From: Nephrocerus scutellatus
Lineage: Eukaryota; Arthropoda; Insecta; Diptera; Pipunculidae
Direction: 5' to 3'
Assembly: GCA_947095585.1 (NCBI GenBank)
Contig: OX352766.1
Span: forward strand, 19,458,939 to 19,522,938
DNA: 64,000 bases
Below, piece after piece: positions 1,240 to 62,518 of the stretch; the stretch's first letter is position 1, and every line of letters starts with the position of its first letter. A model generated the notes under the pieces. It saw only the letters and a list, made by a program, of their open reading frames with translations, was not told where the DNA came from and made no database searches. A program made the translations under genes and the position numbers.

Positions 1240-1251
1240 TGAGTCTGCCAC
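1240..1251. other. empty target site of the histone-cluster retrotransposon
   Basis: TGAGTCTGCCAC once only, in the H3 5' region. In units 3 and 4 the same 12 bp flanks every retrotransposon copy. The expected H3 start, about 31-33 nt from the TATA box at 1273, falls at 1240-1242, on the edge of this site. Confidence 0.85.
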
Positions 1252-1265: not shown

Positions 1266-1273
1266 TATTTATA
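1266..1273 (-). promoter_or_regulatory. H3 TATA box
   Basis: TATAAATA on the minus strand, 95 bp upstream of the H3 ATG. Confidence 0.85.
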
Positions 1274-1393: not shown

Positions 1394-1794
<401 letters not shown>

Positions 1795-2494: not shown

Positions 2495-3183
<689 letters not shown>

Positions 3184-3555: not shown

Positions 3556-3606
3556 ATTTCGGCGTCATCTTATCTTTGTCTTTTTTAAGACACCACCAAA
3601 TAAAAA

Positions 3607-8691: not shown

Positions 8692-9725
<1,034 letters not shown>

Positions 9726-20027: not shown

Positions 20028-20224
20028 CAGTCTTAAATATCCCATACAGCTTTAAAACTTCATCACCTTGTATATAAGTTTTCCGGCTCTTAAAAGCGAC
20101 CACCAAAATTCAACCCACTTGCATTAAATCCCATACGGGATATGTACATAAATCACGGCCACATGGTCTTCCCTTTTAATTTATCTTAGTTAAGTATTTA
20201 AATTCATTATAATTAAACACTATA

Positions 20225-23384: not shown

Positions 23385-23643
23385 CAACCATGTGTTGCCC
23401 AAAATTTCGTTTGTCTCGGCTAGGATAATTGCAGAAGTTCCGTTCACACAATCCCTAACCTGCCAACCGAGGTGTTATCCTTTTTGCATTTTGATTGGTT
23501 GGGGGATTTTGTGAACACATAGGTCTTCTGTAGGATGGATAACCGTCGATGCGGGTATATGGGTTTCCTTACTGGAAATGCATTTACTTTCCGCAACACA
23601 CATCCAGGACCCAACCTCGTACTACGTTCATAAATAAACTCAT
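22302..23643. repeat. 1342-bp direct repeat, right copy
   Basis: Partner of 15334-16675. Its right edge (ACTCAT) is joined to histone H3-H4 promoter sequence at 23644, three bases before the retrotransposon target TGAGTCTGCCAC (23647-23658). The H3 gene expected to the left is missing. Confidence 0.85.
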
Positions 23644-24201
<558 letters not shown>

Positions 24202-31095: not shown

Positions 31096-31563
<468 letters not shown>

Positions 31564-31574
31564 TCACTATTATT

Positions 31575-31586
31575 TGAGTCTGCCAC
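31575..31586. repeat. 12-bp target duplication, H3 side of array A
   Basis: TGAGTCTGCCAC, joined directly to the poly(A) tail (T run) of element copy 1. Confidence 0.9.
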
Positions 31587-31865
31587 TTTTTTTTTTTAGA
31601 TTAAGATATTTTATTAAACATTTAGATATTATACAATTTTGACTTAAAAACTAAACTTATAACTATTTTTATTAAGTGTCGGCTCAACAATAGGGGCCCG
31701 ACGTATTTACATTGTCTTTTTTTGTATTGTTTATTATTAAACAATATTTTTTACTACTTAATCTACTACATGTTTATTTTTAAAGCAATTTAATTTTAAA
31801 CGATAAATTTTAAAATAAAATAAAATGAAGAATAATATTAAAAGGGGGTATAAACAGGGCGATCT

Positions 31866-34801
31866 TCAGCCTCTGTAATTTTGATTGCTGGCCTTCTCGT
31901 AGAAGGAGACGTCTTGATTATTAAAGATGTCGTCAAATCTAGCATCTGTGAATCCTCTGATGTTTATATAGCGCTGGCTTGGCTCGATTTCTTCGATTCT
32001 CAGTCCTTGCATCTCCGGACTTGGATGTGTTTCCAACCCATCAACGAATTTCTTTGCCATTCGGAACAAGTGGTCGGTTATGGGCAGCAGACCTGCCACG
32101 TCGTAAAGCCTTGCACTCGAGACAAACTTATAGCTGTTTGGCACCCTCCAGAGTCCTGTACAGATCCTAAGTACCTTCCTTTCAAATAGGGAGATCTTCT
32201 TCATCGTTGTTGGTGAGACGGTGAACCATATGGGATAGCCATAGGTTATCACTGGCCTGATGAGCTGCTTGTAGATGAGCAGCCTGGTGTTGTTTGACAG
32301 TCCGTTTCGCCTTCGTAGAAGCGGGTGCACCAAATGAAGGGCGTAATTAGCCTTTTTCAACGTTTTATCGATGTGGGCATTAAACTTAAGCCTCTCGGTG
32401 AAGTTTATTCCCAGGTACTTCGTCTCTGATTGGGTTTTTATAACTGTGTTGTCTGGAAGGGTGATTTTTAATCCTCTGCACCGGCTCACAAAATTTTTTC
32501 TCCCTGTTCTTGTCCCTGGCACTCGGAAGCAGATGAGTTCCGTTTTGTTTGCATTTATCTTCAACCCCCACTTGAGGTAGTAGTCCCAAAGATTTCGGAG
32601 GTGTTCCTCCACTCTTCGGGCAGCTATCTCAGGAGAGAGAGAAACGGCATACGTGATCGAGTCATCCGCGTAAAGCATGCTGCTTGTTCCGGCTGTATTG
32701 GTGGGTTGATCCGCCGTGTAGATGTTGAAAAGGACCGGGCCAAGTCTGGAACCTTGAGGAACTCCGGCTTTAATCCCTTTCCTAGTGGATGAGTCGCCAA
32801 AAATCTGTACAAAAAAAACCCTGTGAAAGAGAAAATTTTTAATTATTTTTACAATATAATTGGGGAAGCCAAATCTTATAAGTTTGAACAGTAGCCCGTT
32901 GATCCATACACTATCGAAGGCTTTTTCGATGTCTAGCAAACAGGCTACTGGGCTACTGTACTGCTTTTAACGTTCAGTCCTCGAGTGACGTTACTGTGAA
33001 GTTTCAGCAGAGGGTGCATCGTAGAGTGCTTCTCACGGAAACCGAATTGAAAGGAAGGAATAAGGCCTCTTTCCGAACAAAATGTATTGATCTTTTTACG
33101 GATCAAAGACTCGAATACCTTACTGATACAACACAGTAAAGCTATTGGACGGTAACCAGTTACGCTTGAGCGGTCAGTTTTTTTGGGTACTGGTACTACT
33201 TTGGCCACCTTCCAGTTGTCTGGAAAGTAACCATTGTTAAGGCAATTGTTGAAAATGATGGTTAACATCAAGATTGCCATACCCGGTAACTTTTTAAGCA
33301 AAAAGTTAGAAATCCCGTCAATGCCCGATGATTTTTTTGAGTTTCCACTCATTATTAAATCACTGACTATAGCTGTTTTGGTAAACATTTCAACGTCTAC
33401 AGGCGCTCTAGCGGGGTTTTCTTCACTAAACCGCACTACAGGATTACTTGCAGAAGTGACGTCTTCCACAAGACTTTCCACCTCTTCCAAAAAATCTGGA
33501 AGATGCGTTGGTGGTCGGTCCGTAAAACTCCTTTCAAAATGGCAGGCAAAGGCTTCGGCTTTTTCAACAGGACTGGATGCTACTTGATCTCCAAACGTGA
33601 TACTTTCTGGAATGGAAATACGCTTTCCGACCAGAGCGTTCAGCTTCTTAAAAGCATCATGACCTGGTTTGATGTTCTGGAGTCGTTTGGTCAGGTCATC
33701 TTCCTGGTACTTCCGTAGTGCTTGACGAAGCATGTTCACTGTACAACGCAGTTGCGAAAGTACAGACTGGTATTCGTCATTGACTGTATTAAGAGTCCTG
33801 TTAAAAATCCTCTGAAGGCGCTTCCTCAGCCGTTGCTTGTGAGCATATATTGCCTGTATATGTCCAGGCAGGTGTTGGAAGCGATCCCTGCTGGTGCGTA
33901 TTGTTTTCTGCCGATTGATGGCTGTGTTTACCGCATTCTCGAAATTTCTTATAGCATCATTAATTTCGTAATTCTCCAGATTTCTGCAGTCTGCTGGCAT
34001 TGTTAAATCAGCTTCAACTTCAGATCTAAACCGGTTCCAGTTTACTTTCCTGAAGTTGATGTGTAGTTCAGATGGTGGTGTGACTTTCAAAATTCGCTGA
34101 TTCAACCTCACTCGAAGCTCTATGGCCATATGATCCGAGTCGCTATCGTGCGCCAAACATGAATAATTTGTTAATTCTGGAAGGATATTAATAAAATTTG
34201 TAGTTGCCAGAAAGAAATCCAGAGTTGACGGTGTCCGAGGGTACGTCTTCCGGGGCTGAGAAACTACAGCCATGGTATGCTGATGAGGATTTGAATCCAG
34301 CCAATCTGCAATAGCCTTTCCTTGACTGTTGCACACTTCATCTTGCCATCGGGTGTGTCTAGCGTTAAAGTCCCCTCCAACCACACAGTATGTGTGCCTA
34401 GAGGAGATGCCGCAGACAGTTTGCAGATCCCGTTGGATGTCTTCCCTCGTTGCGTTACAGTGATTGTATACAGATATCACCAGCAAGGTCTCAACCTCGT
34501 TGACTTTGATGCTGACAGCTGTTGCTTCTATGCTACGCAGCCCACTGATTTCTACCTTCTCGCCTGCCATAGTGTCCTTGATAAGGACCGCCGTCCCAGA
34601 GCGTCCACTGCTTTTGTCGACCCTGTGGATATTGTATCCGTCTGGACTGAACGGGTTTCTCCCTGTGAGGTTTGTTTCCTGTAAAAGAAGAATGTCAGGT
34701 TTATTAGTTTTAATAAATAATTTAAGTGTGATACGCCTTGCTAAAGAATAAATGGAGTTCACATTATATGAGAATATACTTATCCTGCTTATTGTGAACA
34801 T
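31866..34801 (-). pseudogene. ORF2 endonuclease/reverse transcriptase, frameshifted (copy 1)
   Basis: Two open parts. The first, 34801 to 32945, encodes 618 aa: the endonuclease and the N-terminal part of the RT. The second, 32939 to 31866, starts around residue 619 and holds the RT catalytic motifs. Between them GGCTACTG is repeated in tandem at about 32943-32958 where copy 2 has it once; the extra 8 bp shifts the frame just before RT motif A. All other domains are as in copy 2. Private differences from copy 2 include Thr for Ser in YLGINF(T) and Val for Ala in LYD(V)AG. Confidence 0.92.
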
Positions 34802-36330
34802 AATTCACAAATAAGGCGACCCAAAACGGTTGTTTTGGACCTGTCATCAAGGCTGCTATAATTAGCAGGCACGACTTTTCTTGCCTTCTGCAAAATTGTA
34901 AAAAGGTCTGCGCCGAATAACCTTTCAGTGTCGTCAAAAATATTAGTTTTTTCAGTAGATGGAGCCGTTTTTAAAGCTTGCTTCTTCACTGGTTTACTGC
35001 ATTCTTGGATGGTTGGTGGTGGTTTGTTGCTAGTTGCTGGCTTGCCAGCAACATCATTACCCATAGCAGCTATACTAGCAAAGCTAACTCCTTTCACTAT
35101 CGCTTTTGCAGCAGATTTCTGGGCGAACTTATGCTGCTCAATCTTCTTTTGGGCGGTTTTTACTTTTTCCGCCATTTTTTCTTTATATTTAGGACATCCC
35201 CGATAGTTTGCAGGATGTCCAGTTTTTTGACAATTTGTGCAGAAAACGTTGTCGTCTTTATTGTTGTCAGCGTTTCTCGGGCATTGTCCAGGTAAGTGCT
35301 CGTCCTTGCACTTAACACATCTATATTTCATACCGCAATTGCTTGCGACATGTCCAAACTTTTGGCAATTTTTGCATTGGGTAATGCCTGCTGGTTTTAG
35401 CTTTTCCCAATGCACCAGCTGGTTCATCAGGAGGGTTTTTGAGCATACTGCTGCCTTATCGCAGTTCTTCTCAAGCTCTACAATGAAATGGTTAAATTTC
35501 CTGTCGTTCCTCTGTGATTTGAAGGGTTTGACCTCCACTACAGGGACACCCTCTGCCGTCAACGCTTCCTTGACATCCTCAGTGTCAAAGGAGTGGTGAA
35601 TACCTTTAAGGACCAACAATTCTTTCCTGTCCTCCTTAGTGGTATAGGTGTTGAATTCAGTCTTTCCCGACTGTAGGAAAGACCGAATTCGCTGGTGGCC
35701 GTCTTTGTTCATGGCCGTAACGACCGATTTGCTGCTATTGATGTTGCGAATTCTGCAACTAATATTGGCACTCTTCGTGAACTTTGAGAGTTCAGCGACG
35801 TTCAGTCTGAAGCAGACAATTGGTGGCATAGCAAATGGTTTAGTTGTTGGTCCAGTACTCTGAGTGCTAATGTTCCCTTGAGCGGTTGGTTGGGATGACT
35901 GCACCGTTCTACGTTGCACCTCTTTTGGTTTTGTTGTATGCTCGACAACAACTGGTTTTGGCGCAATCCTGACATCATTAGCTACTGCAGCCGGAGATGA
36001 AGTTGGTGGTGATGAAGGCCTGGAACTAGCAGACAATCTTCTTCTTTTTGCCTTTACTGGCATGGTTTCGGGAGATGATCGATCTTTGCGACTATCTTCT
36101 TCGCTAAAATTGTCCTCTCCGCCGCTACTGGCTTCGGACGCTTCATTATCCGATTCCTCGACAACGCTCATTGTTTCCTCCTCTGAAGTCGCTGAATCGC
36201 ACAGCTGGTTCACTTCATCCAGCCTTCGGTACAATGACAACAGGAAATCCCCACCATGGTTGGTGACTTGTTCCTTAATTAAGGATAAGACCTCGTTGAC
36301 TTTTTCCTTCCTTTTTGCTTTTTTCCCCAT
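34789..36330 (-). CDS. retrotransposon ORF1 (Gag-like, zinc-knuckle), copy 1
   Basis: 513 aa, the same protein as in copy 2 (see 39772-41313). The reading frame is intact although ORF2 of this copy is broken, so it could still supply ORF1 protein in trans. Confidence 0.93.
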   Translation of the reverse strand: MGKKAKRKEKVNEVLSLIKEQVTNHGGDFLLSLYRRLDEVNQLCDSATSEEETMSVVEESDNEASEASSGGEDNFSEEDSRKDRSSPETMPVKAKRRRLSASSRPSSPPTSSPAAVANDVRIAPKPVVVEHTTKPKEVQRRTVQSSQPTAQGNISTQSTGPTTKPFAMPPIVCFRLNVAELSKFTKSANISCRIRNINSSKSVVTAMNKDGHQRIRSFLQSGKTEFNTYTTKEDRKELLVLKGIHHSFDTEDVKEALTAEGVPVVEVKPFKSQRNDRKFNHFIVELEKNCDKAAVCSKTLLMNQLVHWEKLKPAGITQCKNCQKFGHVASNCGMKYRCVKCKDEHLPGQCPRNADNNKDDNVFCTNCQKTGHPANYRGCPKYKEKMAEKVKTAQKKIEQHKFAQKSAAKAIVKGVSFASIAAMGNDVAGKPATSNKPPPTIQECSKPVKKQALKTAPSTEKTNIFDDTERLFGADLFTILQKARKVVPANYSSLDDRSKTTVLGRLICELCSQ

Positions 36331-36557
36331 GTTATAGGGCTGATCGAAGGAAAACCTTTTCTGAAAATTAATTCTAATAACTGGAAATATTCCTGAAATT
36401 AAAAAATAATTAGTGAAATAATAAAAAAATAAAAAGTAATAGGTAGCGAAATGCTCGCTTTTGGTTTTGGGTTTTTTTTTTTTAATCGGTAGCAGGTAGC
36501 TAGACGATATGATGCGTGATCTGCGTGTGCTCGTGTTGAGCGCTCGATGATGACTGA

Positions 36558-36569
36558 TGAGTCTGCCAC
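36558..36569. repeat. 12-bp target duplication between copies 1 and 2
   Basis: TGAGTCTGCCAC, lying between the 5' end of copy 1 and the A tail of copy 2. Confidence 0.92.
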
Positions 36570-36856
36570 TTTTTTTTTTTTTTTTTTAGATTAAGATATT
36601 TTATTAAACATTTAGATATTATACAATTTTGACTTAAAAACTAAACTTATAACTATTATTATTAAGTGTCGGCTCAACAATAGGGGCCCGACGTATTTAC
36701 ATTGTCTTTTTTTTGTATTGCTTATTATTAAACAATATTTTTTACTACTTAATCTACTACATGTTTATTTTTAAAGCAATTTAATTTTAAACGATAAATT
36801 TTAAAATAAAATAAAAATGAAGAATAATATTAAAGGGGGTATAAACAGGGCGATCT

Positions 36857-39784
36857 TCAGCCTCTGTAATGTTGATTGCTGGCCTTTTCGTAGAAGGAGA
36901 CGTCTTGATTATTAAAGATGTCGTCAAATCTAGCATCTGTGAATCCTCTGATGTTTATATAGCGGTGGCTTGGCTCGATTTCTTCGATTCTCAGTCCTTG
37001 CATCTCCGGACTTGGATGTGTTTCCAACCCATCAACGAATTTCTTTGCCATTCGGAACAAGTGGTCGGTTATGGGCAGCAGACCTGCCGCGTCGTAAAGC
37101 CTTGCACTCGAGACAAACTTATAGCTGTTTGGCACCCTCCAGAGTCCTGTACAGATCCTAAGTACCTTCCTTTCAAATAGGGAGATCTTCTTCATCGTTG
37201 TTGGTGAGACGGTGAACCATATGGGATAGCCATAGGTTATCACTGGCCTGATGAGCTGCTTGTAGATGAGCAGCCTGGTGTTGTTTGACAGTCCGTTTCG
37301 CCTTCGTAGAAGCGGGTGCACCAAATGAAGGGCGTAATTAGCCTTTTTCAACGTTTTATCGATGTGGGCATTAAACTTGAGCCTCTCGGAGAAGTTTATT
37401 CCCAGGTACTTCGTCTCTGATTGGGTTTTTATAACTGTGTTGTCTGGAAGGGTGATTTTTAATCCTCTGCACCGGCTCACAAAATTTTTTCTCCCTGTTC
37501 TTGTCCCTGGCACTCGGAAGCAGATGAGTTCCGTTTTGTTTGCATTTATCTTCAACCCCCACTTGAGGTAGTAGTCCCAAAGATTTCGGAGGTGTTCCTC
37601 CACTCTTCGGGCAGCTATCTCAGGAGAGAGAGAAACGGCATACGTGATCGAGTCATCCGCGTAAAGCATGCTGCTTGTTCCGGCTGTATTGGTGGGTTGA
37701 TCCGCCGTGTAGATGTTGAAAAGGACTGGGCCAAGTCTGGAACCTTGAGGAACTCCGGCTTTAATCCCTTTCCTAGTGGATGAGTCGCCAAAAATCTGTA
37801 CAAAAAAAACCCTGTGAAAGAGAAAATGTTTAATTATTTTTACAATATAATTGGGGAAGCCAAATCTTATAAGTTTGAACAGTAGCCCGTTGATCCATAC
37901 ACTATCGAAAGCTTTTTCGATGTCTAGCAAACAGGCTACTGTACTGCTTTTAACGTTCAGTCCTCGAGTGACGTTACTGTGAAGTTTCAGCAGAGGGTGC
38001 ATCGTAGAGTGCTTCTCACGGAAACCGAATTGAAAGGAAGGAATAAGGCCTCTTTCCGAACAAAATGTATTGATCTTTTTACGGATCAAAGACTCGAATA
38101 CCTTACTGATACAACACAGTAAAGCTATTGGACGGTAACCAGTTACGCTTGAGCGGTCAGTTTTTTTGGGTACTGGTACTACTTTGGCCACCTTCCAGTT
38201 GTCTGGAAAGTAACCATTGTTAAGGCAATTGTTGAAAATGATGGTTAACATCAAGATTGCCATACCCGGTAACTTTTTAAGCAAAAAGTTAGAAATCCCG
38301 TCAATGCCCGATGATTTTTTTGAGTTTCCACTCATTATTAAATCACTGACTATAGCTGTTTTGGTAAACATTTCAACGTCTACAGGCGCTCTAGCGGGGT
38401 TTTCTTCACTAAACCGCACTACAGGATTACTTGCAGAAGTGACGTCTTCCACAAGACTTTCCACCTCTTCCAAAAAATCTGGAAGATGCGTTGGTGGTCG
38501 GTCCGTAAAACTCCTTTCAAAATGGCAGGCAAAGGCTTCGGCTTTTTCAACAGGACTGGATGCTACTTGATCTCCAAACGTGATACTTTCTGGAATGGAA
38601 ATACGCTTTCCGACCAGAGCGTTCAGCTTCTTAAAAGCATCATGACCTGGTTTGATGTTCTGGAGTCGTTTGGTCAGGTCATCTTCCTGGTACTTCCGTA
38701 GTGCTTGACGAAGCATGTTCACTGTACAACGCAGTTGCGAAAGTACAGACTGGTATTCGTCATTGACTGTATTAAGAGTCCTGTTAAAAATCCTCTGAAG
38801 GCGCTTCCTCAGCCGTTGCTTGTGAGCATATATTGCCTGTATATGTCCAGGCAGGTGTTGGAAGCGATCCCTGCTGGTGCGTATTGTTTTCTGCCGATTG
38901 ATGGCTGTGTTTACCGCATTCTCGAAATTTCTTATAGCATCATTAATTTCGTAATTCTCCAGATTTCTGCAGTCTGCTGGCATTGTTAAATCAGCTTCAA
39001 CTTCAGATCTAAACCGGTTCCAGTTTACTTTCCTGAAGTTGATGTGTAGTTCAGATGGTGGTGTGACTTTCAAAATTCGCTGATTCAACCTCACTCGAAG
39101 CTCTATGGCCATATGATCCGAGTCGCTATCGTGCGCCAAACATGAATAATTTGTTAATTCTGGAAGGATATTAATAAAATTTGTAGTTGCCAGAAAGAAA
39201 TCCAGAGTTGACGGTGTCCGAGGGTACGTCTTCCGGGGCTGAGAAACTACAGCCATGGTATGCTGATGAGGATTTGAATCCAGCCAATCTGCAATAGCCT
39301 TTCCTTGACTGTTGCACACTTCATCTTGCCATCGGGTGTGTCTAGCGTTAAAGTCCCCTCCAACCACACAGTATGTGTGCCTAGAGGAGATGCCGCAGAC
39401 AGTTTGCAGATCCCGTTGGATGTCTTCCCTCGTTGCGTTACAGTGATTGTATACAGATATCACCAGCAAGGTCTCAACCTCGTTGACTTTGATGCTGACA
39501 GCTGTTGCTTCTATGCTACGCAGCCCACTGATTTCTACCTTCTCGCCTGCCATAGTGTCCTTGATAAGGACCGCCGTCCCAGAGCGTCCACTGCTTTTGT
39601 CGACCCTGTGGATATTGTATCCGTCTGGACTGAACGGGTTTCTCCCTGTGAGGTTTGTTTCCTGTAAAAGAAGAATGTCAGGTTTATTAGTTTTAATAAA
39701 TAATTTAAGTGTGATACGCCTTGCTAAAGAATAAATGGAGTTCACATTATATGAGAATATACTTATCCTGCTTATTGTGAACAT
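36857..39784 (-). CDS. retrotransposon ORF2: AP-like endonuclease and reverse transcriptase, intact
   Basis: 975 aa. The N-terminal endonuclease (about 5-230) has SYNVNS (N13), LLLQET (E42), GGDFNARHT (D144, N146), STLDFFLAT and SDSDHMAIE (D223, H224), the catalytic set of the apurinic-type endonucleases that nick target DNA. The reverse transcriptase (about 485-800) has SSGIDGISN, WKVAKVVPVPK, GYRPIALL, FQFGFREKHST, motif A LLDIEKAFDSVW, motif B AGVPQGSRLGPVLFN (677 on), motif C LYADDS (707-712) and motif D-like GLKINANKTEL, then YLGINF. No RNase H domain is evident, which fits the Jockey clade and argues against the I clade. Starts at ATG 39784, 13 nt before the end of ORF1 in another frame. 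The specificity of the endonuclease for the H3 start site is inferred from the insertion sites. Confidence 0.95.
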   Translation of the reverse strand: MFTISRISIFSYNVNSIYSLARRITLKLFIKTNKPDILLLQETNLTGRNPFSPDGYNIHRVDKSSGRSGTAVLIKDTMAGEKVEISGLRSIEATAVSIKVNEVETLLVISVYNHCNATREDIQRDLQTVCGISSRHTYCVVGGDFNARHTRWQDEVCNSQGKAIADWLDSNPHQHTMAVVSQPRKTYPRTPSTLDFFLATTNFINILPELTNYSCLAHDSDSDHMAIELRVRLNQRILKVTPPSELHINFRKVNWNRFRSEVEADLTMPADCRNLENYEINDAIRNFENAVNTAINRQKTIRTSRDRFQHLPGHIQAIYAHKQRLRKRLQRIFNRTLNTVNDEYQSVLSQLRCTVNMLRQALRKYQEDDLTKRLQNIKPGHDAFKKLNALVGKRISIPESITFGDQVASSPVEKAEAFACHFERSFTDRPPTHLPDFLEEVESLVEDVTSASNPVVRFSEENPARAPVDVEMFTKTAIVSDLIMSGNSKKSSGIDGISNFLLKKLPGMAILMLTIIFNNCLNNGYFPDNWKVAKVVPVPKKTDRSSVTGYRPIALLCCISKVFESLIRKKINTFCSERGLIPSFQFGFREKHSTMHPLLKLHSNVTRGLNVKSSTVACLLDIEKAFDSVWINGLLFKLIRFGFPNYIVKIIKHFLFHRVFFVQIFGDSSTRKGIKAGVPQGSRLGPVLFNIYTADQPTNTAGTSSMLYADDSITYAVSLSPEIAARRVEEHLRNLWDYYLKWGLKINANKTELICFRVPGTRTGRKNFVSRCRGLKITLPDNTVIKTQSETKYLGINFSERLKFNAHIDKTLKKANYALHLVHPLLRRRNGLSNNTRLLIYKQLIRPVITYGYPIWFTVSPTTMKKISLFERKVLRICTGLWRVPNSYKFVSSARLYDAAGLLPITDHLFRMAKKFVDGLETHPSPEMQGLRIEEIEPSHRYINIRGFTDARFDDIFNNQDVSFYEKASNQHYRG

Positions 39785-41313
39785 AATTCACAAATAAGGC
39801 GACCCAAAACGGTTGTTTTGGACCTGTCATCAAGGCTGCTATAATTAGCAGGCACGACTTTTCTTGCCTTCTGCAAAATTGTAAAAAGGTCTGCGCCGAA
39901 TAACCTTTCAGTGTCGTCAAAAATATTAGTTTTTTCAGTAGATGGAGCCGTTTTTAAAGCTTGCTTCTTCACTGGTTTACTGCATTCTTGGATGGTTGGT
40001 GGTGGTTTGTTGCTAGTTGCTGGCTTGCCAGCAACATCATTACCCATAGCAGCTATACTAGCAAAGCTAACTCCTTTCACTATCGCTTTTGCAGCAGATT
40101 TCTGGGCGAACTTATGCTGCTCAATCTTCTTTTGGGCGGTTTTTACTTTTTCCGCCATTTTTTCTTTATATTTAGGACATCCCCGATAGTTTGCAGGATG
40201 TCCAGTTTTTTGACAATTTGTGCAGAAAACGTTGTCGTCTTTATTGTTGTCAGCGTTTCTCGGGCATTGTCCAGGTAAGTGCTCGTCCTTGCACTTAACA
40301 CATCTATATTTCATACCGCAATTGCTTGCGACATGTCCAAACTTTTGGCAATTTTTGCATTGGGTAATGCCTGCTGGTTTTAGCTTTTCCCAATGCACCA
40401 GCTGGTTCATCAGGAGGGTTTTTGAGCATACTGCTGCCTTATCGCAGTTCTTCTCAAGCTCTACAATGAAATGGTTAAATTTCCTGTCGTTCCTCTGTGA
40501 TTTGAAGGGTTTGACCTCCACTACAGGGACACCCTCTGCCGTCAACGCTTCCTTGACATCCTCAGTGTCAAAGGAGTGGTGAATACCTTTAAGGACCAAC
40601 AATTCTTTCCTGTCCTCCTTAGTGGTATAGGTGTTGAATTCAGTCTTTCCCGACTGTAGGAAAGACCGAATTCGCTGGTGGCCGTCTTTGTTCATGGCCG
40701 TAACGACCGATTTGCTGCTATTGATGTTGCGAATTCTGCAACTAATATTGGCACTCTTCGTGAACTTTGAGAGTTCAGCGACGTTCAGTCTGAAGCAGAC
40801 AATTGGTGGCATAGCAAATGGTTTAGTTGTTGGTCCAGTACTCTGAGTGCTAATGTTCCCTTGAGCGGTTGGTTGGGATGACTGCACCGTTCTACGTTGC
40901 ACCTCTTTTGGTTTTGTTGTATGCTCGACAACAACTGGTTTTGGCGCAATCCTGACATCATTAGCTACTGCAGCCGGAGATGAAGTTGGTGGTGATGAAG
41001 GCCTGGAACTAGCAGACAATCTTCTTCTTTTTGCCTTTACTGGCATGGTTTCGGGAGATGATCGATCTTTGCGACTATCTTCTTCGCTAAAATTGTCCTC
41101 TCCGCCGCTACTGGCTTCGGACGCTTCATTATCCGATTCCTCGACAACGCTCATTGTTTCCTCCTCTGAAGTCGCTGAATCGCACAGCTGGTTCACTTCA
41201 TCCAGCCTTCGGTACAATGACAACAGGAAATCCCCACCATGGTTGGTGACTTGTTCCTTAATTAAGGATAAGACCTCGTTGACTTTTTCCTTCCTTTTTG
41301 CTTTTTTCCCCAT
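39772..41313 (-). CDS. retrotransposon ORF1 (Gag-like nucleic-acid-binding protein), copy 2
   Basis: 513 aa. An acidic Ser/Glu/Asp-rich stretch (about 48-80) precedes a basic KAKRRR (93-98, possible nuclear signal). A PRE/RRM-like region (about 235-300: LLVLKGIHHSFDTEDVKEAL...) is followed by three zinc knuckles: CKNCQKFGHVASNC (319-332), CVKCKDEHLPGQC (338-350) and CTNCQKTGHPANYRGC (364-379). The last, with GHPANYRGCP, is the hallmark of Jockey-group ORF1 proteins in insects. In the family this protein coats the RNA and brings it to the nucleus and target chromatin; contact with the histone locus would be a plausible added role here. Start chosen at ATG 41313 (MGKKAKRKEK), which the relics also align to. 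Confidence 0.94.
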   Translation of the reverse strand: MGKKAKRKEKVNEVLSLIKEQVTNHGGDFLLSLYRRLDEVNQLCDSATSEEETMSVVEESDNEASEASSGGEDNFSEEDSRKDRSSPETMPVKAKRRRLSASSRPSSPPTSSPAAVANDVRIAPKPVVVEHTTKPKEVQRRTVQSSQPTAQGNISTQSTGPTTKPFAMPPIVCFRLNVAELSKFTKSANISCRIRNINSSKSVVTAMNKDGHQRIRSFLQSGKTEFNTYTTKEDRKELLVLKGIHHSFDTEDVKEALTAEGVPVVEVKPFKSQRNDRKFNHFIVELEKNCDKAAVCSKTLLMNQLVHWEKLKPAGITQCKNCQKFGHVASNCGMKYRCVKCKDEHLPGQCPRNADNNKDDNVFCTNCQKTGHPANYRGCPKYKEKMAEKVKTAQKKIEQHKFAQKSAAKAIVKGVSFASIAAMGNDVAGKPATSNKPPPTIQECSKPVKKQALKTAPSTEKTNIFDDTERLFGADLFTILQKARKVVPANYSSLDDRSKTTVLGRLICELCSQ

Positions 41314-41540
41314 GTTATAGGGCTGATCGAAGGAAAACCTTTTCTGAAAATTAATTCTAATAACTGGAAATATTCCTGAAATTAAAAAATAATTAGTGAA
41401 ATAATAAAAAAATAAAAAGTAATAGGTAGCGAAATGCTCGCTTTTGGTTTTGGGTTTTTTTTTTTTAATCGGTAGCAGGTAGCTAGACGATATGATGCGT
41501 GATCTGCGTGTGCTCGTGTTGAGCGCTCGATGATGACTGA

Positions 41541-41552
41541 TGAGTCTGCCAC
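41541..41552. repeat. 12-bp target duplication between copies 2 and 3
   Basis: TGAGTCTGCCAC. Confidence 0.92.
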
Positions 41553-43076
41553 TTTTTTTTTTTTTTTTTTAGATTAAGATATTTTATTAAACATTTAGAT
41601 ATTATACAATTTTGACTTAAAAACTAAACTTATAACTATTATTATTAAGTGTCGGCTCAACAATAGGGGCCCGACGTATTTACATTGTCTTTTTTTTGTA
41701 TTGCTTATTATTAAACAATATTTTTTACTACTTAATCTACTACATGTTTATTTTTAAAGCAATTTAATTTTAAACGATAAATTTTAAAATAAAATAAAAA
41801 TGAAGAATAATATTAAAGGGGGTATAAACAGGGCGATCTTCAGCCTCTGTAATGTTGATTGCTGGCCTTTTCGTAGAAGGAGACGTCTTGATTATTAAAG
41901 ATGTCGTCAAATCTAGCATCTGTGAATCCTCTGATGTTTATATAGCGGTGGCTTGGCTCGATTTCTTCGATTCTCAGTCCTTGCATCTCCGGACTTGGAT
42001 GTGTTTCCAACCCATCAACGAATTTCTTTGCCATTCGGAACAAGTGGTCGGTTATGGGCAGCAGACCTGCCGCGTCGTAAAGCCTTGCACTCGAGACAAA
42101 CTTATAGCTGTTTGGCACCCTCCAGAGTCCTGTACAGATCCTAAGTACCTTCCTTTCAAATAGGGAGATCTTCTTCATCGTTGTTGGTGAGACGGTGAAC
42201 CATATGGGATAGCCATAGGTTATCACTGGCCTGATGAGCTGCTTGTAGATGAGCAGCCTGGTGTTGTTTGACAGTCCGTTTCGCCTTCGTAGAAGCGGGT
42301 GCACCAAATGAAGGGCGTAATTAGCCTTTTTCAACGTTTTATCGATGTGGGCATTAAACTTGAGCCTCTCGGAGAAGTTTATTCCCAGGTACTTCGTCTC
42401 TGATTGGGTTTTTATAACTGTGTTGTCTGGAAGGGTGATTTTTAATCCTCTGCACCGGCTCACAAAATTTTTTCTCCCTGTTCTTGTCCCTGGCACTCGG
42501 AAGCAGATGAGTTCCGTTTTGTTTGCATTTATCTTCAACCCCCACTTGAGGTAGTAGTCCCAAAGATTTCGGAGGTGTTCCTCCACTCTTCGGGCAGCTA
42601 TCTCAGGAGAGAGAGAAACGGCATACGTGATCGAGTCATCCGCGTAAAGCATGCTGCTTGTTCCGGCTGTATTGGTGGGTTGATCCGCCGTGTAGATGTT
42701 GAAAAGGACTGGGCCAAGTCTGGAACCTTGAGGAACTCCGGCTTTAATCCCTTTCCTAGTGGATGAGTCGCCAAAAATCTGTACAAAAAAAACCCTGTGA
42801 AAGAGAAAATTTTTAATTATTTTTACAATATAATTGGGGAAGCCAAATCTTATAAGTTTGAACAGTAGCCCGTTGATCCATACACTATCGAAGGCTTTTT
42901 CGATGTCTAGCAAACAGGCTACTGTACTGCTTTTAACGTTCAGTCCTCGAGTGACGTTACTGTGAAGTTTCAGCAGAGGGTGCATCGTAGAGTGCTTCTC
43001 ACGGAAACCGAATTGAAAGGAAGGAATAAGGCCTCTTTCCGAACAAAATGTATTGATCTTTTTACGGATCAAAGAA
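41553..43076 (-). mobile_element. 5'-truncated non-LTR retrotransposon, array A copy 3
   Basis: 1524 bp: the 3' third of the element with an 18-nt A tail (41553-41570). The 5' end stops inside ORF2 (residue about 565, at 43075) and is followed at once by a complete TGAGTCTGCCAC. 5' truncation with its own target duplication marks an independent insertion, as expected from incomplete target-primed reverse transcription. Confidence 0.92.
41840..43076 (-). pseudogene. ORF2 C-terminal fragment (copy 3)
   Basis: Residues about 565-975 remain open, including RT motifs A, B and YADD, but the endonuclease and first RT motifs are gone. It has no proper start codon. Confidence 0.9.
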
Positions 43077-43088
43077 TGAGTCTGCCAC
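43077..43088. repeat. 12-bp target duplication, promoter side of array A
   Basis: TGAGTCTGCCAC, followed by the undisturbed H3-H4 promoter. Confidence 0.92.
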
Positions 43089-43631
<543 letters not shown>

Positions 43632-51004: not shown

Positions 51005-51016
51005 TGAGTCTGCCAC
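51005..51016. repeat. 12-bp target duplication, H3 side of array B
   Basis: TGAGTCTGCCAC. Confidence 0.9.
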
Positions 51017-51295
51017 TTTTTTTTTTTAGATTAAGATATTTTATTAAACATTTAGATATTATACAATTTTGACTTAAAAACTAAACTTATAACTATTTTT
51101 ATTAAGTGTCGGCTCAACAATAGGGGCCCGACGTATTTACATTGTCTTTTTTTGTATTGTTTATTATTAAACAATATTTTTTACTACTTAATCTACTACA
51201 TGTTTATTTTTAAAGCAATTTAATTTTAAACGATAAATTTTAAAATAAAATAAAATGAAGAATAATATTAAAAGGGGGTATAAACAGGGCGATCT

Positions 51296-54231
51296 TCAGC
51301 CTCTGTAATTTTGATTGCTGGCCTTCTCGTAGAAGGAGACGTCTTGATTATTAAAGATGTCGTCAAATCTAGCATCTGTGAATCCTCTGATGTTTATATA
51401 GCGCTGGCTTGGCTCGATTTCTTCGATTCTCAGTCCTTGCATCTCCGGACTTGGATGTGTTTCCAACCCATCAACGAATTTCTTTGCCATTCGGAACAAG
51501 TGGTCGGTTATGGGCAGCAGACCTGCCACGTCGTAAAGCCTTGCACTCGAGACAAACTTATAGCTGTTTGGCACCCTCCAGAGTCCTGTACAGATCCTAA
51601 GTACCTTCCTTTCAAATAGGGAGATCTTCTTCATCGTTGTTGGTGAGACGGTGAACCATATGGGATAGCCATAGGTTATCACTGGCCTGATGAGCTGCTT
51701 GTAGATGAGCAGCCTGGTGTTGTTTGACAGTCCGTTTCGCCTTCGTAGAAGCGGGTGCACCAAATGAAGGGCGTAATTAGCCTTTTTCAACGTTTTATCG
51801 ATGTGGGCATTAAACTTAAGCCTCTCGGTGAAGTTTATTCCCAGGTACTTCGTCTCTGATTGGGTTTTTATAACTGTGTTGTCTGGAAGGGTGATTTTTA
51901 ATCCTCTGCACCGGCTCACAAAATTTTTTCTCCCTGTTCTTGTCCCTGGCACTCGGAAGCAGATGAGTTCCGTTTTGTTTGCATTTATCTTCAACCCCCA
52001 CTTGAGGTAGTAGTCCCAAAGATTTCGGAGGTGTTCCTCCACTCTTCGGGCAGCTATCTCAGGAGAGAGAGAAACGGCATACGTGATCGAGTCATCCGCG
52101 TAAAGCATGCTGCTTGTTCCGGCTGTATTGGTGGGTTGATCCGCCGTGTAGATGTTGAAAAGGACCGGGCCAAGTCTGGAACCTTGAGGAACTCCGGCTT
52201 TAATCCCTTTCCTAGTGGATGAGTCGCCAAAAATCTGTACAAAAAAAACCCTGTGAAAGAGAAAATTTTTAATTATTTTTACAATATAATTGGGGAAGCC
52301 AAATCTTATAAGTTTGAACAGTAGCCCGTTGATCCATACACTATCGAAGGCTTTTTCGATGTCTAGCAAACAGGCTACTGGGCTACTGTACTGCTTTTAA
52401 CGTTCAGTCCTCGAGTGACGTTACTGTGAAGTTTCAGCAGAGGGTGCATCGTAGAGTGCTTCTCACGGAAACCGAATTGAAAGGAAGGAATAAGGCCTCT
52501 TTCCGAACAAAATGTATTGATCTTTTTACGGATCAAAGACTCGAATACCTTACTGATACAACACAGTAAAGCTATTGGACGGTAACCAGTTACGCTTGAG
52601 CGGTCAGTTTTTTTGGGTACTGGTACTACTTTGGCCACCTTCCAGTTGTCTGGAAAGTAACCATTGTTAAGGCAATTGTTGAAAATGATGGTTAACATCA
52701 AGATTGCCATACCCGGTAACTTTTTAAGCAAAAAGTTAGAAATCCCGTCAATGCCCGATGATTTTTTTGAGTTTCCACTCATTATTAAATCACTGACTAT
52801 AGCTGTTTTGGTAAACATTTCAACGTCTACAGGCGCTCTAGCGGGGTTTTCTTCACTAAACCGCACTACAGGATTACTTGCAGAAGTGACGTCTTCCACA
52901 AGACTTTCCACCTCTTCCAAAAAATCTGGAAGATGCGTTGGTGGTCGGTCCGTAAAACTCCTTTCAAAATGGCAGGCAAAGGCTTCGGCTTTTTCAACAG
53001 GACTGGATGCTACTTGATCTCCAAACGTGATACTTTCTGGAATGGAAATACGCTTTCCGACCAGAGCGTTCAGCTTCTTAAAAGCATCATGACCTGGTTT
53101 GATGTTCTGGAGTCGTTTGGTCAGGTCATCTTCCTGGTACTTCCGTAGTGCTTGACGAAGCATGTTCACTGTACAACGCAGTTGCGAAAGTACAGACTGG
53201 TATTCGTCATTGACTGTATTAAGAGTCCTGTTAAAAATCCTCTGAAGGCGCTTCCTCAGCCGTTGCTTGTGAGCATATATTGCCTGTATATGTCCAGGCA
53301 GGTGTTGGAAGCGATCCCTGCTGGTGCGTATTGTTTTCTGCCGATTGATGGCTGTGTTTACCGCATTCTCGAAATTTCTTATAGCATCATTAATTTCGTA
53401 ATTCTCCAGATTTCTGCAGTCTGCTGGCATTGTTAAATCAGCTTCAACTTCAGATCTAAACCGGTTCCAGTTTACTTTCCTGAAGTTGATGTGTAGTTCA
53501 GATGGTGGTGTGACTTTCAAAATTCGCTGATTCAACCTCACTCGAAGCTCTATGGCCATATGATCCGAGTCGCTATCGTGCGCCAAACATGAATAATTTG
53601 TTAATTCTGGAAGGATATTAATAAAATTTGTAGTTGCCAGAAAGAAATCCAGAGTTGACGGTGTCCGAGGGTACGTCTTCCGGGGCTGAGAAACTACAGC
53701 CATGGTATGCTGATGAGGATTTGAATCCAGCCAATCTGCAATAGCCTTTCCTTGACTGTTGCACACTTCATCTTGCCATCGGGTGTGTCTAGCGTTAAAG
53801 TCCCCTCCAACCACACAGTATGTGTGCCTAGAGGAGATGCCGCAGACAGTTTGCAGATCCCGTTGGATGTCTTCCCTCGTTGCGTTACAGTGATTGTATA
53901 CAGATATCACCAGCAAGGTCTCAACCTCGTTGACTTTGATGCTGACAGCTGTTGCTTCTATGCTACGCAGCCCACTGATTTCTACCTTCTCGCCTGCCAT
54001 AGTGTCCTTGATAAGGACCGCCGTCCCAGAGCGTCCACTGCTTTTGTCGACCCTGTGGATATTGTATCCGTCTGGACTGAACGGGTTTCTCCCTGTGAGG
54101 TTTGTTTCCTGTAAAAGAAGAATGTCAGGTTTATTAGTTTTAATAAATAATTTAAGTGTGATACGCCTTGCTAAAGAATAAATGGAGTTCACATTATATG
54201 AGAATATACTTATCCTGCTTATTGTGAACAT
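51296..54231 (-). pseudogene. ORF2, frameshifted (array B copy 1)
   Basis: Open parts 54231-52375 and 52369-51296, separated by the GGCTACTG duplication. Confidence 0.92.
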
Positions 54232-55760
54232 AATTCACAAATAAGGCGACCCAAAACGGTTGTTTTGGACCTGTCATCAAGGCTGCTATAATTAGCAGGC
54301 ACGACTTTTCTTGCCTTCTGCAAAATTGTAAAAAGGTCTGCGCCGAATAACCTTTCAGTGTCGTCAAAAATATTAGTTTTTTCAGTAGATGGAGCCGTTT
54401 TTAAAGCTTGCTTCTTCACTGGTTTACTGCATTCTTGGATGGTTGGTGGTGGTTTGTTGCTAGTTGCTGGCTTGCCAGCAACATCATTACCCATAGCAGC
54501 TATACTAGCAAAGCTAACTCCTTTCACTATCGCTTTTGCAGCAGATTTCTGGGCGAACTTATGCTGCTCAATCTTCTTTTGGGCGGTTTTTACTTTTTCC
54601 GCCATTTTTTCTTTATATTTAGGACATCCCCGATAGTTTGCAGGATGTCCAGTTTTTTGACAATTTGTGCAGAAAACGTTGTCGTCTTTATTGTTGTCAG
54701 CGTTTCTCGGGCATTGTCCAGGTAAGTGCTCGTCCTTGCACTTAACACATCTATATTTCATACCGCAATTGCTTGCGACATGTCCAAACTTTTGGCAATT
54801 TTTGCATTGGGTAATGCCTGCTGGTTTTAGCTTTTCCCAATGCACCAGCTGGTTCATCAGGAGGGTTTTTGAGCATACTGCTGCCTTATCGCAGTTCTTC
54901 TCAAGCTCTACAATGAAATGGTTAAATTTCCTGTCGTTCCTCTGTGATTTGAAGGGTTTGACCTCCACTACAGGGACACCCTCTGCCGTCAACGCTTCCT
55001 TGACATCCTCAGTGTCAAAGGAGTGGTGAATACCTTTAAGGACCAACAATTCTTTCCTGTCCTCCTTAGTGGTATAGGTGTTGAATTCAGTCTTTCCCGA
55101 CTGTAGGAAAGACCGAATTCGCTGGTGGCCGTCTTTGTTCATGGCCGTAACGACCGATTTGCTGCTATTGATGTTGCGAATTCTGCAACTAATATTGGCA
55201 CTCTTCGTGAACTTTGAGAGTTCAGCGACGTTCAGTCTGAAGCAGACAATTGGTGGCATAGCAAATGGTTTAGTTGTTGGTCCAGTACTCTGAGTGCTAA
55301 TGTTCCCTTGAGCGGTTGGTTGGGATGACTGCACCGTTCTACGTTGCACCTCTTTTGGTTTTGTTGTATGCTCGACAACAACTGGTTTTGGCGCAATCCT
55401 GACATCATTAGCTACTGCAGCCGGAGATGAAGTTGGTGGTGATGAAGGCCTGGAACTAGCAGACAATCTTCTTCTTTTTGCCTTTACTGGCATGGTTTCG
55501 GGAGATGATCGATCTTTGCGACTATCTTCTTCGCTAAAATTGTCCTCTCCGCCGCTACTGGCTTCGGACGCTTCATTATCCGATTCCTCGACAACGCTCA
55601 TTGTTTCCTCCTCTGAAGTCGCTGAATCGCACAGCTGGTTCACTTCATCCAGCCTTCGGTACAATGACAACAGGAAATCCCCACCATGGTTGGTGACTTG
55701 TTCCTTAATTAAGGATAAGACCTCGTTGACTTTTTCCTTCCTTTTTGCTTTTTTCCCCAT
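54219..55760 (-). CDS. retrotransposon ORF1, array B copy 1
   Basis: 513 aa, same protein as the other ORF1 copies. Confidence 0.93.
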   Translation of the reverse strand: MGKKAKRKEKVNEVLSLIKEQVTNHGGDFLLSLYRRLDEVNQLCDSATSEEETMSVVEESDNEASEASSGGEDNFSEEDSRKDRSSPETMPVKAKRRRLSASSRPSSPPTSSPAAVANDVRIAPKPVVVEHTTKPKEVQRRTVQSSQPTAQGNISTQSTGPTTKPFAMPPIVCFRLNVAELSKFTKSANISCRIRNINSSKSVVTAMNKDGHQRIRSFLQSGKTEFNTYTTKEDRKELLVLKGIHHSFDTEDVKEALTAEGVPVVEVKPFKSQRNDRKFNHFIVELEKNCDKAAVCSKTLLMNQLVHWEKLKPAGITQCKNCQKFGHVASNCGMKYRCVKCKDEHLPGQCPRNADNNKDDNVFCTNCQKTGHPANYRGCPKYKEKMAEKVKTAQKKIEQHKFAQKSAAKAIVKGVSFASIAAMGNDVAGKPATSNKPPPTIQECSKPVKKQALKTAPSTEKTNIFDDTERLFGADLFTILQKARKVVPANYSSLDDRSKTTVLGRLICELCSQ

Positions 55761-55987
55761 GTTATAGGGCTGATCGAAGGAAAACCTTTTCTGAAAATTA
55801 ATTCTAATAACTGGAAATATTCCTGAAATTAAAAAATAATTAGTGAAATAATAAAAAAATAAAAAGTAATAGGTAGCGAAATGCTCGCTTTTGGTTTTGG
55901 GTTTTTTTTTTTTAATCGGTAGCAGGTAGCTAGACGATATGATGCGTGATCTGCGTGTGCTCGTGTTGAGCGCTCGATGATGACTGA

Positions 55988-55999
55988 TGAGTCTGCCAC
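55988..55999. repeat. 12-bp target duplication between copies 1 and 2, array B
   Basis: TGAGTCTGCCAC. Confidence 0.92.
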
Positions 56000-56286
56000 T
56001 TTTTTTTTTTTTTTTTTAGATTAAGATATTTTATTAAACATTTAGATATTATACAATTTTGACTTAAAAACTAAACTTATAACTATTATTATTAAGTGTC
56101 GGCTCAACAATAGGGGCCCGACGTATTTACATTGTCTTTTTTTTGTATTGCTTATTATTAAACAATATTTTTTACTACTTAATCTACTACATGTTTATTT
56201 TTAAAGCAATTTAATTTTAAACGATAAATTTTAAAATAAAATAAAAATGAAGAATAATATTAAAGGGGGTATAAACAGGGCGATCT

Positions 56287-59214: not shown

Positions 59215-60743
59215 AATTCACAAATAAGGCGACCCAAAACGGTTGTTTTGGACCTGTCATCAAGGCTGCTATAATTAGCAGGCACGACTTTTCTTGCCTT
59301 CTGCAAAATTGTAAAAAGGTCTGCGCCGAATAACCTTTCAGTGTCGTCAAAAATATTAGTTTTTTCAGTAGATGGAGCCGTTTTTAAAGCTTGCTTCTTC
59401 ACTGGTTTACTGCATTCTTGGATGGTTGGTGGTGGTTTGTTGCTAGTTGCTGGCTTGCCAGCAACATCATTACCCATAGCAGCTATACTAGCAAAGCTAA
59501 CTCCTTTCACTATCGCTTTTGCAGCAGATTTCTGGGCGAACTTATGCTGCTCAATCTTCTTTTGGGCGGTTTTTACTTTTTCCGCCATTTTTTCTTTATA
59601 TTTAGGACATCCCCGATAGTTTGCAGGATGTCCAGTTTTTTGACAATTTGTGCAGAAAACGTTGTCGTCTTTATTGTTGTCAGCGTTTCTCGGGCATTGT
59701 CCAGGTAAGTGCTCGTCCTTGCACTTAACACATCTATATTTCATACCGCAATTGCTTGCGACATGTCCAAACTTTTGGCAATTTTTGCATTGGGTAATGC
59801 CTGCTGGTTTTAGCTTTTCCCAATGCACCAGCTGGTTCATCAGGAGGGTTTTTGAGCATACTGCTGCCTTATCGCAGTTCTTCTCAAGCTCTACAATGAA
59901 ATGGTTAAATTTCCTGTCGTTCCTCTGTGATTTGAAGGGTTTGACCTCCACTACAGGGACACCCTCTGCCGTCAACGCTTCCTTGACATCCTCAGTGTCA
60001 AAGGAGTGGTGAATACCTTTAAGGACCAACAATTCTTTCCTGTCCTCCTTAGTGGTATAGGTGTTGAATTCAGTCTTTCCCGACTGTAGGAAAGACCGAA
60101 TTCGCTGGTGGCCGTCTTTGTTCATGGCCGTAACGACCGATTTGCTGCTATTGATGTTGCGAATTCTGCAACTAATATTGGCACTCTTCGTGAACTTTGA
60201 GAGTTCAGCGACGTTCAGTCTGAAGCAGACAATTGGTGGCATAGCAAATGGTTTAGTTGTTGGTCCAGTACTCTGAGTGCTAATGTTCCCTTGAGCGGTT
60301 GGTTGGGATGACTGCACCGTTCTACGTTGCACCTCTTTTGGTTTTGTTGTATGCTCGACAACAACTGGTTTTGGCGCAATCCTGACATCATTAGCTACTG
60401 CAGCCGGAGATGAAGTTGGTGGTGATGAAGGCCTGGAACTAGCAGACAATCTTCTTCTTTTTGCCTTTACTGGCATGGTTTCGGGAGATGATCGATCTTT
60501 GCGACTATCTTCTTCGCTAAAATTGTCCTCTCCGCCGCTACTGGCTTCGGACGCTTCATTATCCGATTCCTCGACAACGCTCATTGTTTCCTCCTCTGAA
60601 GTCGCTGAATCGCACAGCTGGTTCACTTCATCCAGCCTTCGGTACAATGACAACAGGAAATCCCCACCATGGTTGGTGACTTGTTCCTTAATTAAGGATA
60701 AGACCTCGTTGACTTTTTCCTTCCTTTTTGCTTTTTTCCCCAT
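59202..60743 (-). CDS. retrotransposon ORF1, array B copy 2
   Basis: 513 aa, identical protein, with the same 13-nt overlap with ORF2. Confidence 0.94.
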   Translation of the reverse strand: MGKKAKRKEKVNEVLSLIKEQVTNHGGDFLLSLYRRLDEVNQLCDSATSEEETMSVVEESDNEASEASSGGEDNFSEEDSRKDRSSPETMPVKAKRRRLSASSRPSSPPTSSPAAVANDVRIAPKPVVVEHTTKPKEVQRRTVQSSQPTAQGNISTQSTGPTTKPFAMPPIVCFRLNVAELSKFTKSANISCRIRNINSSKSVVTAMNKDGHQRIRSFLQSGKTEFNTYTTKEDRKELLVLKGIHHSFDTEDVKEALTAEGVPVVEVKPFKSQRNDRKFNHFIVELEKNCDKAAVCSKTLLMNQLVHWEKLKPAGITQCKNCQKFGHVASNCGMKYRCVKCKDEHLPGQCPRNADNNKDDNVFCTNCQKTGHPANYRGCPKYKEKMAEKVKTAQKKIEQHKFAQKSAAKAIVKGVSFASIAAMGNDVAGKPATSNKPPPTIQECSKPVKKQALKTAPSTEKTNIFDDTERLFGADLFTILQKARKVVPANYSSLDDRSKTTVLGRLICELCSQ

Positions 60744-60970
60744 GTTATAGGGCTGATCGAAGGAAAACCTTTTCTGAAAATTAATTCTAATAACTGGAAA
60801 TATTCCTGAAATTAAAAAATAATTAGTGAAATAATAAAAAAATAAAAAGTAATAGGTAGCGAAATGCTCGCTTTTGGTTTTGGGTTTTTTTTTTTTAATC
60901 GGTAGCAGGTAGCTAGACGATATGATGCGTGATCTGCGTGTGCTCGTGTTGAGCGCTCGATGATGACTGA

Positions 60971-60982
60971 TGAGTCTGCCAC
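60971..60982. repeat. 12-bp target duplication between copies 2 and 3, array B
   Basis: TGAGTCTGCCAC. Confidence 0.92.
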
Positions 60983-62506: not shown

Positions 62507-62518
62507 TGAGTCTGCCAC
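62507..62518. repeat. 12-bp target duplication, promoter side of array B
   Basis: TGAGTCTGCCAC, followed by the undisturbed H3-H4 promoter of the next unit. Confidence 0.92.

Follow-up and report, generated by a model that had tools for sequence, protein, structure and literature searches.

Oriented insertion of a Jockey-like LINE at one exact place in core histone promoters of Nephrocerus scutellatus, with a probable preference for TATA-promoter start sites

What does a retrotransposon recognise when it enters one and the same place in a histone promoter repeatedly? The question is raised by a 64,000-nucleotide stretch of the Nephrocerus scutellatus genome (C6:19458939-19522938, hereafter the window), which is filled by fly-type histone units in tandem (H3-, H4+, H2A-, H2B+, H1+, the signs giving the strand; gene names were taken from the translations of open reading frames (ORFs), with no database comparison). 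Three head-to-tail copies of a long interspersed element (LINE), 4971, 4971 and 1524 bp long, lie at 31575-43088 and occupy the H3-H4 promoter (31587-43076). A reading of this sequence alone had proposed a Jockey-like element specific for the H3 start site. We followed the element through 613,391,848 bp of genome in nine contigs, and we find that its oriented insertion extends to the promoters of H2A, H4 and H2B and to dispersed sites; of 15 such sites with a recognisable duplication, eight have a TATA box at a similar distance.

One exact place in four core histone promoters

The 12-bp target TGAGTCTGCCAC occurs 11 times in the window, exclusively on the + strand and with no one-mismatch copy. 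It borders every copy of this array and of a second one, is unoccupied at 1240 and 9171, and is found once more at 23647, beside a lost H3 gene. The sequence-only reading had described all copies in the window as lying in this one H3 sequence, in one orientation and with the 12-mer on both sides, had noted one empty target in each of units 1 and 2, and had placed the nick at GCCAC/CAGCC. The nick agrees with the junctions and the other points are confirmed; its picture of a LINE that strongly and repeatedly enters H3 at a single exact position, always in one orientation, and uses histone arrays as a multicopy haven was also right. The element is oriented like H3 and separates the H3 coding region from the H3 TATA box. 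In H3 sense the target reads GTGGCAGACTCA; counted from the first T of TATAAATA, its last A comes 33 nt later, and the TCA equivalent to the end of the 12-mer lies 33 nt from the TATA box in H4 and 32 nt in H2A. TATA boxes of D. melanogaster begin between -38 and -29 (PMC2728527), so that the H3 12-mer would cover about -11 to +1.

In other units and loci, elements at the H3 12-mer have seven distinct 5' junctions: copy 1 from nt 1, a truncation at nt 3449 (the copy 3 junction), a truncation at nt 1882, a full copy after AACAAAA, an internally deleted copy after AA, and the copies of loci L010 and L011, each with extra bases of its own. These seven junctions exclude insertion at this place by chance. 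In 264 kb of histone array, read as joined tiles (four further 10-kb loci were read besides), the target is readable at 25 H3 genes, being empty at 16 and occupied at nine, although some of the nine are copies of one another; a 26th target, that at 23647, has no H3 gene. This amounts to a selfish load on core histone genes, with nine of 25 H3 genes cut from their promoter.

A 49-nt pattern of the element 3' end, searched genome-wide, gave at least 373 matches at up to three mismatches and at least 89 exact ones. Flanks were read for 86 of the 89, the three omitted being members of a series spaced by 3.16 kb on contig C2. The 80 fetched flanks comprise 75 exact ends and five with one mismatch, and a further 11 exact ends lie in the window, the tiles, L011 and L012; the one-mismatch ends are five of the 11 listed, and the histone ones (L148-L151) were picked because they lie in a histone cluster on contig C1. 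Core histone start sites hold 38 of the 86 exact ends, all in gene sense, while 48 lie elsewhere. The four one-mismatch copies of the C1 cluster are likewise at histone start sites and in sense, which brings the histone-located 3' ends to 42 (H3 17, H2A 14, H2B 6, H4 5), with none of the 42 at H1. Fetched flanks account for 31 of them (31/80, all sense: H2A 13, H3 7, H2B 6, H4 5), each beginning at or within 2 nt of the target and together showing 25 distinct combinations of tail and target; the other 11 are the exact ends of the window, tiles, L011 and L012 (H3 10, H2A 1). All 36 exact ends on C6 are in histone genes, seven at 16.96-17.11 Mb and 29 at 19.38-20.55 Mb, and the third cluster, C1 27.2-27.4 Mb, has H2A and H3 insertions with exact ends and H4 and H2B insertions with one mismatch. 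We estimate, from the spread of 3'-end matches, that the three clusters span about 1.5 Mb, or 0.25% of the genome, with 44% of the examined exact ends.

The four targets differ in sequence. Compared with the H3 target, identical positions number 3/12 in H2A, 4/12 in H4 and 6/12 in H2B, and the mean pairwise identity of 20 targets is 0.30. A copy that occupies the H2A target GCAAACATCAAAT (joined tiles 82057-87012) stands at the putative H2A start site in H2A sense, and one at the putative H4 start site (C6:19595620-19600578, joined tiles 136682-141640, target CCAAAATCATCAT) in H4 sense, on the opposite strand from the H2A copy. Duplications measure 12-13 bp at H3, H2A and H4, where both ends were read; for the H2B insertions on C6 the junction read was the 3' one. 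In the C1 cluster the H3 target, GCGTCGGACTCA, has diverged, yet the insertion is at the same place. These results show that each of the promoters of H3, H2A, H4 and H2B has a single exact place that the element prefers, and that it always enters in sense. Specificity for the H3 start site, as proposed earlier, was thus too narrow and does not hold in that form, given the same element at the putative start sites of three other genes, in three clusters, and 48 of 86 ends elsewhere. From the spacing of promoter motifs we infer that the insertion places correspond to transcription start sites, with duplications ending at about +1 to +4.

Within the window, recombination accounts for part of the copies. 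The first array recurs as the second with a period of 19,430 bp and a single difference in 13,377 bp, and is thus duplicated there. Between copies 1 and 2 there is no difference in nt 1-3599, and their 22 differing alignment columns all fall in 3600-4971; copies 2 and 3 differ at 3/1524 positions. Copy 2 therefore looks as if it arose when an element of the copy 1 type and one of the copy 3 type underwent unequal crossover. With the second array duplicated and copy 2 apparently recombinant, the window alone suggests about two insertions rather than six. The sequence-only reading had named two outcomes that would speak against it: many copies at unrelated sites, which were found (48/86), and descent of all copies from one insertion by recombination, which covers the second array and probably copy 2 and leaves the rest unaccounted for.

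Distance to the TATA box and competing explanations

From the first T of the TATA box to the first nick we count 22 nt at H3, 22 at H4, 23 at H2A and 20 at H2B; the nick position is uncertain by about one base, since A's at the nick may be counted to the tail. For dispersed insertions, the 5' end was sought in 37 non-C6 copies with a read 3' flank (8+20+9; L160 belongs to a histone copy). The 5' part of the element was found in 17, no 5' end was found in 20, and a target duplication, 11-15 bp long, was recognisable in 15, two of which (L119 and L130) have long extra bases between duplication and element. L093 (mismatched flanks, TATA at 28) and L126 (no duplication seen) were left out of the count. 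Among the 15 non-histone sites, read on both flanks, TATA lies 18-23 nt upstream in eight and 20-23 nt in seven, and in 0/15 does it fall in the bins 6-17 and 24-41. The background is 13/302 windows (about 4% expected), which gives a binomial p of about 6e-8 for 8/15. TATA thus lies 20-23 nt from the nick at the four histone promoters and 18-23 nt from it at 8/15 other sites, and is absent from that distance at 7/15.

The explanation that we favour, and to which we give a somewhat better than even chance, is a preference for start sites of TATA promoters, above all those of replication-dependent core histone genes, in which insertion is positioned by the TATA/TBP machinery of RNA polymerase II (Pol II). 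Guidance would come from the TBP/TFIID pre-initiation complex, or from the DNA that it opens, and not from the nicked sequence. TATAAA is absent from the 265 nt upstream of the H1 ATG, and in Drosophila TBP/TFIID is reported at the H3/H4 and H2A/H2B promoters and TRF2 at the TATA-less H1 promoter (Isogai et al. 2007, via PMC10515271).

Several points weigh against this explanation. More than half of the examined exact ends (48/86) lie outside histone genes, an older fossil copy in the H2B-H1 spacer breaks the start-site rule, a subfamily of about 88% identity lies antisense in H2B coding sequence, and one array copy has its 5' end joined to H2A coding sequence. The start sites themselves rest on the spacing of TATA and initiator (Inr) motifs, not on RNA, and the 18-23 window was chosen after the histone spacings were known. 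Seven of the 15 paired non-histone sites have no TATA at 18-23: two show related words (TGTAAA at 23 in L097 and, by eye, TATCAT at 20 in L120), and L100, L117, L119, L123 and L130 have neither. One TATA-positive site, L095, lies inside another copy's own 3' untranslated region (99% identity), and two others, L099 and L154, in one repeat family (74% over 149 nt); the eight are accordingly not fully independent, nor all known promoters. Among the unpaired 5' flanks L101-L112, TATA falls at 32-36 in 3/12, one of which is histone H2B, the subfamily of the others being not established. TATA, although not TATAAA, is present upstream of H1. Examined separately, near-matches to Inr in 39 non-histone 3' flanks number 12 at positions 6-15, against 1-5 in other 5-nt bins, an enrichment that is weak by itself.

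Alternatively, an element protein might read a TATA-like box directly and nick some 22 bp away with no transcription machinery, which would account for the similar spacing at sites that need not be promoters, L095 among them. We think this unlikely, as TATA words are common (13/302), yet 38/86 exact ends are concentrated in about 1.5 Mb of histone DNA, which indicates that more than the word TATA matters, and as H1 is spared. It is also improbable, in our view, that the element goes to accessible, highly transcribed S-phase promoters or to the histone locus body, with its position set by local opening or bending of the DNA and not by TBP. The strong histone excess, the repeat entered twice at the same position (L047/L068), the family entered at equivalent places (L099/L154) and a duplication that spans the expected bubble would all fit; against it stand the absence of insertions in H1 of the same arrays (0/42) and the tight TATA spacing (20-23) at the four histone promoters.

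An endonuclease specific for the H3 12-mer, in the manner of R1 and R2, would explain the exact repeated insertion with several independent 5' junctions. Unspecific LINEs usually nick A/T-rich sites, and the nick here is not at such a site. As sole rule this specificity is contradicted by same-family insertions into different sequences at the H2A, H4 and H2B start sites and elsewhere (20-target identity 0.30), and we regard it as very improbable. Finally, the spread of a few insertions through the arrays by unequal crossover and conversion, to which the duplicated second array, the recombinant-looking copy 2 and the recurring identical junctions L076/L077/L082, L092/L143/L145, L087/L088 and L146/L147 lend some colour, has a negligible chance of being the explanation in view of four genes, three clusters, seven H3 5' junctions and the 25 tail and target combinations among 31 flanks (an upper guide, as tail length can change after insertion), and, since the genes and the 5' junctions differ, a single insertion amplified by recombination is rejected as a complete explanation.

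Under the favoured start-site reading, integration would proceed by target-primed reverse transcription (TPRT), with the TBP/TFIID pre-initiation complex, or the DNA opened by it, positioning the insertion complex. The template strand would be nicked first, near -12 to -10, and a second nick would follow close to the start site. The duplication, at about -11 to +4, would then cover roughly the stretch of promoter that is melted by Pol II, so that the endonuclease may cut near the bubble edges. Because the host TATA box and +1 lie directly upstream of the first base of the element, the histone promoter could transcribe a near-exact full-length element RNA; the element also carries an Inr and a motif resembling the downstream promoter element (DPE) of its own. 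The complete scheme, in which an endonuclease guided by the Pol II pre-initiation complex cuts both edges of the promoter bubble at TATA promoters and leaves copies at +1, in sense, to be transcribed full-length in S phase from a host promoter, mostly a histone one, is tentative, and we would put it somewhat below an even chance.

Identity of the element and nearest precedents

The element is an APE-type LINE, that is, a non-LTR retrotransposon (LTR, long terminal repeat). Its copies show target duplications, an A-rich tail and 5' truncation, and a single ORF, ORF2, combines an endonuclease (PF03372/PF14529) with the reverse transcriptase domain RVT_1 in Pfam, its best PDB match being L1 ORF2p. 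Residues E42, Y112, D144, N146, D195 and H224, which we take to be the catalytic residues of the APE fold, are invariant in 22 endonuclease sequences. The predicted endonuclease model (pLDDT 92.8) has the L1 and TRAS1 endonucleases as nearest folds and gives no direct hint of a targeting guide. Relative to copies 2 and 3, ORF2 of copy 1 is broken by an 8-bp tandem duplication. Homologues P0003-P0006 have 46-52% identity and uninformative names, and no relatives were found in scans of viral contigs and GTDB contigs.

Diptera Jockey-clade LINEs have an ORF1 with CCHC motifs, an ORF2 with APE endonuclease and reverse transcriptase, an A-rich tail and an internal promoter with Inr and DPE-like motifs. 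The element has this layout in common with them (CCHC ORF1, endonuclease and reverse transcriptase in ORF2, A-rich tail, Inr and DPE-like motifs) and appears Jockey-like, although one CCHC above cut-off in ORF1 and no RNase H family listed in the Pfam scan are not diagnostic of Jockey alone. The Inr and DPE pair occurs six times in the window, four times at element 5' ends, as against 2-11 times in simulated Markov windows (n=10); the count is ordinary, and the placement at element 5' ends is the one notable point. We know of no start-site targeting among Jockey elements.

R1, TRAS and SART hold exact positions and orientations in their targets. R1/R2, TRAS/SART and Utopia/Keno are like the present element in exact position and orientation in multicopy genes; they read one sequence, whereas here the targets are start sites of protein genes with differing sequence, together with dispersed sites. 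Ty3 and Tf1 also show promoter-directed integration; these are integrase-based LTR elements, in contrast to the TPRT of a LINE. Target-specific LINEs have been reported at rRNA, spliced-leader, tRNA and snRNA genes, microsatellites, telomeric repeats and transposons (PMC4640811; PMC3706591), tandem insertion into the target has been reported for a Utopia family, and Keno and the R1 clade have APE endonucleases (PMC4640811). Promoter-targeting retrotransposons insert near, and not at, a fixed position (PMC3706591). The nearest precedent is TRE5-A of Dictyostelium, an APE-type LINE whose position with respect to genes is set by transcription-factor sites; TFIIIB subunits are bound by its ORF1 protein. 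It targets Pol III tRNA genes about 50 bp upstream, whereas here the targets would be Pol II TATA promoters, at the putative start site (PMC5633606).

In the D. melanogaster histone locus, insertions of LTR elements are marked (PMC12400953), and RetroSeeker concerns retrocopies made from histone genes, not insertions into them (PMC11727581). Open-access titles and abstract openings, which take in few subscription journals, disclosed no LINE directed at histone genes or at start sites of Pol II, and the novelty of a start-site-targeting LINE is provisional. If the favoured reading holds, the target of a LINE would be no sequence but DNA in a certain functional state, namely that of a TATA promoter of Pol II at its start site; the histone array would have a parasite comparable to R1/R2 in ribosomal DNA; LINE integration would be linked to the TBP machinery, which suggests promoter-precise insertion as a tool; and the insertions may reveal, with no need of RNA data, where transcription starts.

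Coordinates and further observations

Table 1. Features of the window; positions are numbered from its first letter.
Feature	Position	Strand	Remark
Unoccupied H3 target, sense GTGGCAGACTCA	1240..1251	-	about -11 to +1 of H3, for a putative start site
H3 TATA box of unit 1, TATAAATA	1266..1273	-	first T 22 nt upstream of first nick
H4 start-site target CCAAAATCATCAT	1416..1428	+	empty in unit 1
H2A start-site target, sense GCAAACATCAAAT	2919..2931	-	empty in unit 1, occupied in other units
H2B start-site target beginning GTTTTAGTCATAG	3078..3090	+	empty in unit 1, occupied in other units
Fossil copy, H2B-H1 spacer	4502..6167	+	91-94% identity, internal deletions; outside the histone start sites
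Unoccupied H3 target, unit 2	9171..9182	-	
H3 coding sequence	31096..31506	-	element array lies between it and its TATA box
Target duplication, H3 side of copy 1	31575..31586	-	
Copy 1, full length	31587..36557	-	ORF2 split over two frames
Target duplication, copy 1/copy 2 boundary	36558..36569	-	
Copy 2, full length	36570..41540	-	ORF1 and ORF2 both open
Copy 2 ORF2	36857..39784	-	975 aa, APE-type endonuclease and reverse transcriptase
Copy 2 ORF1	39775..41313	-	513 aa, CCHC zinc knuckle
Element 5' end	41505..41540	-	Inr TCAGTC (A+1 at 41538), DPE-like ACACGC at +28 to +33
Target duplication, copy 2/copy 3 boundary	41541..41552	-	
Copy 3, 5'-truncated	41553..43076	-	element nt 3448-4971
Target duplication, TATA side of copy 3	43077..43088	-	
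H3 TATA box, now upstream of element array	43103..43110	-	position by offset from unit 1
Duplicate of whole array	51005..62518	-	d1, d2, d3 and four 12-mers

The fossil copy is 5'-complete and adjoins a remnant of the H3 3' end (4385-4441). Four such copies are present in the window, the other three units having theirs at the equivalent spot, and most tile units also hold the spacer fossil, in some cases shortened. The subfamily of about 88% identity is found from 7653 onward in L010, from 8320 onward in L011 and at 149006-151704 of the joined tiles; it lies antisense in H2B coding sequence in the tiles (target AGCTTTCCTTCCTC) and in L010, and in a spacer, with no A-tail, in L011.

Chimeric copies, at 204824-209783 and 221570-226529 of the joined tiles and at C1:27220609-27225557, pair an H3 3' junction with an H2A 5' junction, or an H4 3' junction with an H2B 5' junction. 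In these copies recombination between elements has deleted the genes in between, H4 and H2A being lost from some units. At 248693-254048 of the joined tiles an element is interrupted by 387 bp of inserted sequence with a 13-bp duplication, and its 5' end joins H2A coding sequence. L012 contains truncated element fragments of different ages head to tail, with 98, 93 and 87% identity and no 12-mer between them.

Outside the histone loci, four exact 3' ends lie about 3157 bp apart at C2:76302916-76312437, of which the L056 flank was read. The pairs L047/L068 and L099/L154 represent repeats that were entered, on different chromosomes, at one and the same place or at an equivalent one, and L057 has short stretches in common with L047 and L068; all of these repeats look promoter-like and are perhaps LTRs.

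In unit 3 (15334-23646) H3 and the greater part of H1 are missing. Where they would stand, about 5.4 kb with no ORF longer than 123 codons is flanked by direct repeats of about 1.35 kb that are rich in TTTTTATTTTGTTATC. The right junction comes within 3-4 bp of the H3 target, which gives it the look of a repaired break at the H3 start site; a break made by the endonuclease was considered, and with this offset and a single case it is noted and no more. Part of the insert (19060-21260) contains short palindromes, recognised by eye (for example around GTTCTTATAAGAACC and AGCTCTTAAAAGAGCT), that are reminiscent of histone 3' stem-loops.

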